From a virus: DNA of 64,000 bases. The stretch spans positions 1-64,000 of the IMG/VR virus record IMGVR_UViG_3300049734_000491; one strand, written 5' to 3'. How positions within the stretch are numbered: the stretch's first letter is position 1; each line of letters begins with the position of its first letter. The translations under genes and the position numbers were made by a program. The notes beneath the pieces are model-generated. The model saw only the letters and a program-made list of their open reading frames with translations, made no database searches and was not told where the DNA came from. Below, in pieces: positions 15,110 to 26,341 of this stretch.

Positions 15110-15253
15110 CTGAGCTGGAGCTCAGCCTGGCCGACCAACTTATTTCAGGGCAGCCTTCGGCCCTCCTCTCGAGGTACTCACTCCCCTCGAGCAGTTGGTC
15201 ATCCCGGATCGGTTGTGGGTGTCGGTCGTGGTGGACTCCTTTCGTTGTTGTTA
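15110..15253 (-). ncRNA. structured small RNA, copy A
   Basis: The transcript starts below the promoter at 15260-15288. It carries the normal GAAAGGA leader but no start codon after it, then CGATCC-N2-GATGACC, a hairpin CTCGAGG/CCTCGAG (15185-15191 with 15168-15174) with a purine loop, and GAGGGCCGAA. An outer pair GACCAACT/AGTTGGTC (15193-15200 with 15133-15140) encloses it, and CTGAGCTCCAGCTCAG (15110-15125) ends it. Copies B (23.3 kb) and C (27.1 kb) share the core. A 20-codon frame starts at the ATG in GATGACC but lacks a close ribosome site. Confidence 0.6.
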
Positions 15254-23232: not shown

Positions 23233-23338
23233 TGAGCTGGAGCTCAGAAATGCCGGCTGGATATTTTTGGGCAGGCTTCGGCCCTCCTCTCAGAGTCCTC
23301 ACTCCCTCTGAGCAGTTGGTCATCGTGGATCGCTGTAT
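23233..23338 (-). ncRNA. structured small RNA, copy B
   Basis: The transcript begins a few bases before CGATCC, directly under the promoter at 23345-23373, leaving no room for a ribosome site. CGATCC-N2-GATGACC is followed by the stem CTCAGAG/CTCTGAG (23306-23312 with 23289-23295), a GGAGTGAGGA loop, GAGGGCCGAAGCCTGC and AAAAATATC, and ends at TGAGCTCCAGCTCA (23233-23246). Compared with copy A the stem differs at three positions on both sides and still pairs. A 44-codon frame overlaps but has no initiation signal. Confidence 0.65.
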
Positions 23339-23704: not shown

Positions 23705-23727
23705 CTCTAGCATGAGCTCGAGCTCAG

Positions 23728-23798
23728 AGCTGCCGGCGGGAGTCGAACCCGCGTCCCGGGCTTTGCAGGCCCGTGCCTCACCGCTCGGCCACGGCAGC
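23728..23798 (-). tRNA. tRNA-Cys (anticodon GCA)
   Basis: The cloverleaf is complete: acceptor GCTGCCG/CGGCAGC, D arm GCC...GGC, anticodon arm CGGGC-CTGCAAA-GCCCG, T arm GCGGG-TTCGACT-CCCGC, and discriminator T as usual for Cys. No CCA is encoded. It lies 5 bp after the small basic gene ending at 23804 and is probably transcribed with it from the promoter at 23957. It is the only tRNA I find in the window. Confidence 0.95.
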
Positions 23799-25329: not shown

Positions 25330-25358
25330 AGTGTAGTCCTTGGTTCGTCGTCTGTCAA
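25330..25358 (-). promoter_or_regulatory. promoter for the leaderless DUF6011-like gene
   Basis: TTGACA (25353-25358), 17 bp, TACACT (25330-25335). Confidence 0.8.
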
Positions 25359-25876: not shown

Positions 25877-26341
25877 TGAGCTCCAGCTCAGCGAGCTGGT
25901 CCTCGAGCCAGAGAGGCGGTGGGAACCCCGGGCCGGGACTGCTTCGGCGCTACTTCCCCGGCAGGCGTGCACACCTCCGGTTACCTCACGACTCGGTGGG
26001 CCCGTTCTCCCCGTTCGCTCCCCTTACCGTTCGGGCTCCACCACCTTCATGAGTCGAGGATTTTCGACCGTAGGGCGTTTCACAGCCGTACTTGCGAGGG
26101 CACCTCCGGGGTCCCGGAGTTCTCATCGCTTCTCTGTGCGTTGGCCGTGGGGAGATTTCTCTCCCCGTGGCCGGCGAGTTCAGCGGGAATGGCTCTGTGG
26201 CTCGCGATGCCACTCGGCTCCCGGAGGACTTTCGGGCGTGTCCCCACTCACCCTCGGACTATCAATCTGGCGACCACCTCCGTTCGGGGCACTCCTACCG
26301 CCGTTTCGACCGTCGTGCGGAGTGCTTTGCTGTTGTTGTTG
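25877..26341 (-). ncRNA. candidate large structured non-coding RNA (about 465 nt)
   Basis: A consensus promoter (26348-26376) drives a region with no credible gene. Pairings: GCACTCC/GGAGTGC (26289-26295, 26319-26325); a 13-bp stem including two G-U pairs with a GAAA loop in the RNA (26143-26172); CTCCGGG/CCCGGAG (26104-26119); a composite hairpin where CGACTC-GGTGG-GCCC pairs with GGGC-t-CCACC and GAGTCG (25984-26059); GCCGGG/CCCGGC (25932-25962). It ends at TGAGCTCCAGCTCA (25877-25890), the hairpin that also ends copies A and B. It is not RNase P RNA or tmRNA by any motif I know. Confidence 0.6.

Follow-up and report, generated by a model that had tools for sequence, protein, structure and literature searches.

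A new family of structured non-coding phage RNAs with a self-complementary loop that very likely supports homo-oligomerisation

What does a phage encode in a stretch of about 465 nucleotides that lies behind a strong promoter and seems to hold no gene? This question is raised by positions 25,877 to 26,341 of the window (the whole stretch of DNA analysed, 64,000 nucleotides long), which is part of a 127,992-base IMG/VR virus record whose portal protein shares 34-42% identity with portals of actinobacterial phages, such as that of Actinomycetia phage DSL-LC01. An original prediction had proposed that a consensus promoter drives this stretch. The promoter is indeed there and is near-perfect (TTGACA-17-TATACT, 26376-26348), but it points to the left, so that the transcript would be the minus strand. 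The unit sits among short, clustered genes read to the left, many of which have their own TTGACA-17-TATACT-like promoter and a AACAACAACGAAAGGAC-type leader, and 18 promoter-like sites were counted within the surrounding 12 kb versus 1.1 in shuffles. We placed the RNA on the minus strand, approximately from 26341 to 25877, on account of the promoter direction, the lack of a ribosome site with a start codon and the presence of an end hairpin before the next promoter. The unit comprises the following features:

26376-26348, minus strand: promoter TTGACA-N17-TATACT, near-perfect and of sigma-70 type, of the same class as the promoters of neighbouring leftward genes
25877..26341, minus strand: predicted non-coding transcript of about 465 nt with approximate ends, delimited by the promoter position, the absence of a gene, the end hairpin and the next promoter
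26123..26341, minus strand: 5' region of about 220 nt, specific to this phage and without sequence conservation in the homologues
25923..26122, minus strand: conserved core of 200 nt, matched by the covariance model R1 with 169 bits and E ~1e-50, a score that is not independent, the window being one of the 12 sequences from which the model was built
25883..25899, minus strand: end hairpin CCAGCUC-GCU-GAGCUGG, read from the sequence and the fold of the tail
25868-25840, minus strand: next promoter, just beyond the end hairpin of the transcript

The end hairpin is probably a terminator without a U-run. It had been described as shared with other copies, and TGAGCTCCAGCTCA-type end hairpins were in fact found repeated in the window (15110-15124, 23233-23246 and 25877-25891), where GAGCTCNAGCTC-like words occur at about 12 times their frequency in shuffles; these repeated hairpins may serve as terminators without U-runs. 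Two further observations concern the promoters of this region. Another perfect promoter (27198-27170, within 27198-26996 on the minus strand) precedes a stretch of about 170 nt that has strong hairpins and lacks a clear ribosome site; this stretch could encode a second small RNA or, alternatively, a gene of about 60 aa with a weak start. At the minus-strand promoters at 25358, 23985, 21573 and 14707, the start codon lies only a few bases past the -10 box, a short spacing that suggests leaderless mRNAs among genes that otherwise have long leaders.

Searches of Pfam and PHROG in six frames over the unit gave nothing above noise, and a GAAAGG-type ribosome site with a start codon is absent 3' of the promoter, unlike in most units that share that promoter; the proposed absence of a credible gene in these 465 nt is therefore upheld. 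Folding energy was weak evidence here, for the unit of about 465 nt (z = -1.8 on the minus strand and -3.3 on the plus strand) as well as for the core alone (z = -0.8, with a minimum-energy fold that differs from the conserved structure), and the case for a structured RNA thus comes from homologues. An RNA on the plus strand, although it would have the better folding energy, was rejected, since the promoter and the G-U pairs described below indicate the opposite strand.

As blastn of the whole window RNA against the phage and plasmid records of INPHARED and PLSDB returned no match, the relatives were reached via seeds. The open frame over the region, back-translated and scanned simply as DNA seeds, led to L090, a 15-base seed taken from an A-rich part led to L093, L095, L098 and L099, and one and the same set of eight IMG/VR contigs was reached with two more seeds, GGTAAGGGGAGCGAA and GCCYTCGCRAGTAN6TGAA. 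Using L106 and L115 as queries, blastn retrieved approximately 190 cluster C1 (Bixzunavirus) and several cluster C2 (Myrnavirus) Mycobacterium phages (Ceeclamvirinae), and with a last seed, TGACGRYTAACGACCAC, which has matches in 56 contigs, about 30 further homologues were added to the first eight. Other seed matches (L091, L092, L094, L096, L097, L100-L104, L107-L112, L114 and L116-L121) were dismissed as chance, as was the single match of a genome-collection scan. The covariance model R1, built from 12 members, gave 53 matches, 43 of them distinct, with E values from 3e-59 to 5e-3, the weakest few being partial. The nhmmer and blastn alignments of the homologues begin near RNA position 223-231. 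Nearly all phages represented by whole records carry one copy; the additional R1 rows obtained for Tonenili, Myrna and one contig are either fragments of the single copy or weak matches. Among the portal-protein relatives of the window phage (at most 42% identity), R1 detected the RNA in none of 50 whole records, in a search with no positive control of its own; in the other scans of whole records and loci, the model recovers every carrier. Inspection of the gene gaps of phage DSL-LC01, by eye and by model, gave no convincing match; in this phage, an intergenic gap of about 290 bases (L087:41280-41590) is rich in GC-rich hairpins, and the RNA model does not match it.

In the conserved core, P1 closes a structure with two arms, arm A being formed by P2-P2a-P3-P4-P5 and arm B by P7-P6:

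26113..26122 (5' strand) and 25923..25932 (3' strand), minus strand: closing stem P1, with two-sided changes at 10 of 10 pairs
26107..26110 (5' strand) and 26010..26013 (3' strand), minus strand: P2, 93-98% paired, with two-sided changes
26096..26099 (5' strand, CCUC) and 26020..26023 (3' strand, GGGG, within the conserved GGUAAGGGGAGCGAA), minus strand: P2a, 89% paired, with two-sided changes at 2 of 4 pairs, figures biased upward because the helix was found afterwards by scanning the same alignment
26085..26087 (5' strand) and 26034..26036 (3' strand), minus strand: P3, 100% paired in the manual alignment, with GC/CG/UA exchange
26074..26077 (5' strand) and 26042..26045 (3' strand), minus strand: P4, 100% paired in the manual alignment, with heavy covariation; 4-7 bp in homologues
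26053..26068, minus strand: P5 hairpin GUCGA-AAAUCC-UCGAC, of variable length among homologues, as read from the sequence and the alignment
26002..26004 (5' strand) and 25934..25936 (3' strand), minus strand: P7, 90% paired, with CAG/CUG, CGG/CCG and CGA/UCG exchange, found in the same scan as P2a and its figure biased upward for the same reason
25958..25980, minus strand: P6 hairpin CCGG ... CCGG with a self-complementary loop, 97-98% paired, with covariation
25966..25973, minus strand: loop 8-mer UGUGCACG of P6, self-complementary in nearly all members while its letters change

P1 has 10 bp, is longer in some members and is followed by a conserved A. In the alignment of 12 sequences, two-sided changes were observed at 23 of 26 pairs, with a covariation of 0.694 (0.173 +/- 0.027 in shuffles, and at most 0.19 when the structure was slid). 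Extending the analysis of P1, P2, P3, P4 and P6 to 43 sequences, about 30 of which were not used in model building, we found compensatory changes at every one of the 25 pairs and a covariation of 0.676 (0.157 +/- 0.012 in shuffles, 0.03-0.14 in slid structures), figures that overstate independence, given the kinship of the sequences and an alignment fitted to the model. Two-sided changes fill 310 cells of this alignment versus 91 in shuffles, and none of 500 shuffles reaches the observed covariation, shuffle counts that, like the binomial P values, overstate significance because the members are kin. Pair types are varied (88 further types versus 64), which indicates that the covariation does not rest on one lineage. 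In manually aligned blocks, exchanges involve whole helices, both in P2 (CCCG/CGGG, CUCC/GGAG, CGUG/CACG, CACC/GGUG and CAGC/GCUG) and in P4 (CGCC/GGUG, CUGGC/GCCAG, ACAUCCC/GGGAUGU, CCCGCCA/UGGCGGG and CUCCACC/GGUGGAG). Conserved G-U pairs, present in P4 of six sequences and in P2a, occur on the minus-strand RNA and would be A.C mismatches on the plus strand, so that the structure agrees with the strand of the promoter; the strand is directly supported in this way, as are the homology and the conserved secondary structure by the alignments.

The large structured non-coding RNA of the original prediction, which had proposed looking for covariation in related phages, is thus corroborated by its conservation across many phages and by compensatory changes on the promoter-driven strand, whereas the individual hairpins then named are mostly not part of the conserved structure. 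The supposed 13-bp stem with a GAAA loop at 26143-26172 mixed the two strands: the minus strand has the GAAA loop with 11 pairs and two A.C mismatches, 13 pairs are possible on the plus strand only, with a UUUC loop, and the hairpin falls in the non-conserved 5' region. The composite hairpin proposed at 25984-26059 competes with the pairing supported by covariation. The conserved and mostly unpaired segments GAGGUGCCCUCGCAAGUAC, GAACGGUAAGGGGAGCGAA and UAACGACCAC are candidates for tertiary or quaternary contact sites. Three GGAGGUG words in the RNA resemble ribosome-binding sites. In L098 the arm B hairpin is not recognisable; the 3' half of this member is replaced (L098:7390-7720) and ends with a T-arm-like GGTTCGATTCC and a closing stem, with a tRNA-like look, and was not called as a tRNA.

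A small protein gene or a decayed gene, on either strand, would account for the open frames present on both strands of the unit (141 aa on plus) and for the 'hypothetical protein' annotated over the RNA in most of the cluster C1 phages listed. We give this explanation hardly any credence, since no protein family matches, the covariation of pairs is strong, and variable-length insertions together with a 1-nt insertion destroy any common frame. The latter, found in phage Nappy, falls within the ORF named gp68 in phage I3, which is therefore unlikely to be a gene. Judged from their sequences, the 'hypothetical protein' genes over the RNA, in phage I3 (L122, 3513-3776) and in many cluster C1 equivalents, are probably false calls; in Myrna, Phabba and ScoobyDoobyDoo the RNA locus is unannotated. 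Upstream of the RNA, sites resembling -35 and -10 boxes were identified in L093, L095, L098, Myrna, Phabba and ScoobyDoobyDoo, upstream promoter matches are no better than the local background in several homologues, and no good promoter lies near the core in L113 and L115. It is from the promoters only that we infer expression of the RNA.

The loop of P6 has the form GGA-8 nt-GA(U/A), with the 8-mer flanked by purines. In the window, UGUGCACG is embedded in a near-palindrome, AGGUGUGCACGCCU (25976-25963), and the register of the loop is shifted from the consensus by one extra base. Across members, the 8-mer reads GUGCGCAC, GUGGCCAC, GCGGCCGC, GUUGCAAC, GCUGCAGC, GUGCGCGC or GGUGCAUC, each of which is self-complementary when G-U is allowed, divergent members have GUGCAC, AUGCAU or GACGUC at the same place of the loop, and the loop of L098 is a clear exception. 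With G-U allowed, 33 of 39 members have a self-complementary 8-mer at this fixed position (8% expected per sequence window), and 97.8% of the trans pairs in the loop alignment are standard. The adjacent central bases are GC in 17 sequences and CG in 15, and parsimony, on a weakly resolved tree, counts 11 changes of this central pair. Since adjacent bases cannot pair within one chain, the constraint on the loop acts between chains, an argument that Kretsch et al. applied to the OLE L9.3 and GOLLD L21a homo-oligomers, in which the symmetric contact is visible by cryo-EM (PMC12286853). As the loop of arm B holds an 8-nt self-complementary sequence, two copies would pair loop to loop, with predicted duplex energies of the 8-mers between -9 and -14.5 kcal/mol (a loop of the HIV-1 dimerisation type, taken as yardstick, gives -13.9), and the RNA is very likely homo-oligomeric, as far as its sequence tells. 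Dimers are better predicted than cages, because only one self-complementary contact was found.

Palindromes often mark the sites of dimeric proteins and the oligomer is a prediction, so that the RNA could also be structured without dimerising, its loop palindrome binding a symmetric protein dimer or having another purpose. We consider this unlikely: the letters vary from member to member (GUGCGCAC, GUGGCCAC, GCGGCCGC, GUUGCAAC, GCUGCAGC and GGUGCAUC) and the self-complementarity stays, which fits pairing and not the recognition of a fixed sequence, and the palindrome lies in a hairpin loop between purines (GGA...GA). We hold instead, with good confidence, that the RNA belongs to a new phage RNA family, has its own promoter, forms a homodimer or homo-oligomer through P6 loop-to-loop contact and serves as a structural particle rather than a messenger. 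The phage would transcribe the stand-alone RNA during infection, from a strong promoter type common to the neighbouring genes, and the RNA would fold into two arms on P1. The P6 loops of two copies would then pair in a symmetric kissing contact, as in the HIV-1 dimerisation loop, GOLLD and OLE, and the outcome would be at least a dimer, or a larger homo-oligomer acting as a structural RNA particle.

There is no conserved gene neighbour of the RNA among the members examined. The neighbours vary and include early genes, an anti-restriction family (L098 and L106), ParB-like genes (L095) and head genes (L099); in Myrna and Phabba, release factor/nucleotidyltransferase genes are found a few genes away, and the start of the window's portal gene lies about 1.8 kb from the RNA. 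Relatives in cluster C are as a rule described as lytic, which, together with the absence of a partition or replication gene beside the other members examined and with a location that varies from early genes to structural genes, argues against an RNA replication origin or primer, like the extrachromosomal-prophage RNA of cluster A mycobacteriophages or ColE1 RNA II. Such a function has a precedent in cluster A phages without RepA, in which prophage replication needs a non-coding RNA region (PMC7157519), and would suit the ParB-like genes of L095; its probability appears to us very low. A packaging RNA like that of phi29, which forms rings via loop-loop contacts, would be in line with loop-loop self-assembly, with the portal gene of the window and with the position of the L099 RNA beside head genes. 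The phi29 pRNA acts in a packaging-motor context through two different complementary loops, that is, heterologous ones and not one self-complementary loop, and in the other members examined the RNA lies away from head genes, which makes this function slightly less probable still than the replication one.

The original prediction had also pointed to a nearby tRNA gene, and this gene is real:

23727-23798: tRNA-Cys, the sole tRNA noted, about 2 kb from the RNA

Nearness to tRNAs is, nevertheless, not consistent across the family. In five carriers with 29-34 tRNAs, the nearest is at least 10 kb from the RNA among the matches listed, and a tRNA or tmRNA was found in the examined flanks of 4 of 32 further loci. 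Genes for tmRNA are predicted at L150:10221-10616 and L169:284-609, in both cases on the strand of the RNA and 0.4-0.9 kb downstream from it, and in L166 a tRNA is close to the RNA. In I3 the tmRNA is located at 98.7 kb and the RNA at 21.1 kb, and in Tonenili at 101.7 kb and 24.0 kb, respectively. The predicted RNA spans 21.07-21.44 kb in I3 and 3.24-3.59 kb in Myrna. We discarded the possibility that the RNA itself is a tmRNA, since neither ARAGORN nor Rfam places a tmRNA over it and the same phages carry a distinct tmRNA gene.

We conclude that this is a real new family of structured non-coding phage RNAs, absent from Rfam 15, which adds a widespread member to the short list of ornate phage RNAs with unexplained roles. 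The literature search found the RNA undescribed, with most subscription papers outside its scope, so that an earlier description is possible. Because the RNA is present in tractable C1 and C2 phages of M. smegmatis, deletion, RNA-seq and structure work can begin at once; its single self-complementary loop allows RNA homo-oligomerisation to be tested sharply and cheaply, and in many genome records the 'hypothetical protein' annotations over the RNA, which are probably false, can be corrected.

Regarding known RNA families, the Rfam scan of the window RNA, with E up to 10, gave no match near any threshold, and scans of members against the whole of Rfam returned neither GOLLD nor ROOL nor any other family, in agreement with what had been anticipated for these two. 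The GOLLD model (RF02032) matched none of 37 carriers at E<=1 and none of 11 at E<=10, in a search with no positive control that leaves a very distant kinship possible, and the ROOL model (RF03087) matched none of 37 carriers at E<=1, in a search in which no positive control gave a hit. A short-word likeness to 16S/23S rRNA was rejected, Rfam giving no rRNA match.

Several known systems share parts of this design. The HIV-1 dimerisation initiation site is a hairpin loop with a short palindrome between flanking purines; it is part of a genomic RNA and does not stand alone, which makes the likeness an analogy only. The phi29 packaging RNA is likewise a phage RNA that assembles via loop-loop contacts, and the Rfam scan of the window RNA matches neither it nor OLE. 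OLE has a self-complementary loop (L9.3) with palindrome-keeping covariation that gives a dimer (PMC12286853), but it occurs mostly in Bacillota that are extremophilic or anaerobic, where it acts together with proteins (PMC12054373). ROOL is also a large ornate phage RNA and forms an RNA-only homo-oligomer (PMC12286853), whereas its conserved elements are different and the RNA described here is shorter. GOLLD, like this RNA, is encoded by phages, is without a known protein product and has a conserved 3' domain and a less conserved 5' domain, and its symmetric kissing loop (L21a) shows the same GC/CG switch at the centre (PMC12286853). The two differ in length (more than 800 nt in GOLLD versus a core of about 200-370 nt here, with 465 nt predicted for the window transcript) and in the frequent position of GOLLD beside tRNA arrays, to which the RNA described here has no consistent proximity. 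GOLLD forms a 14-mer nanocage; the oligomer proposed here is predicted from the loop sequence. A separate RNA class unrelated to GOLLD and ROOL, which in mycobacteria and other hosts under infection would form a closed particle of several subunits without protein, and which was hitherto overlooked in well-studied laboratory phages or annotated there as protein, is conceivable, although we consider it rather doubtful. We regard the family as a member in its own right of the large structured, self-assembling phage RNAs, not one assigned to GOLLD or ROOL. Given its self-complementary loop, the RNA likely corresponds in function to the large phage RNAs that form homo-oligomers, and, by analogy with GOLLD and ROOL, its most likely role would be that of a scaffold or compartment made of RNA only.
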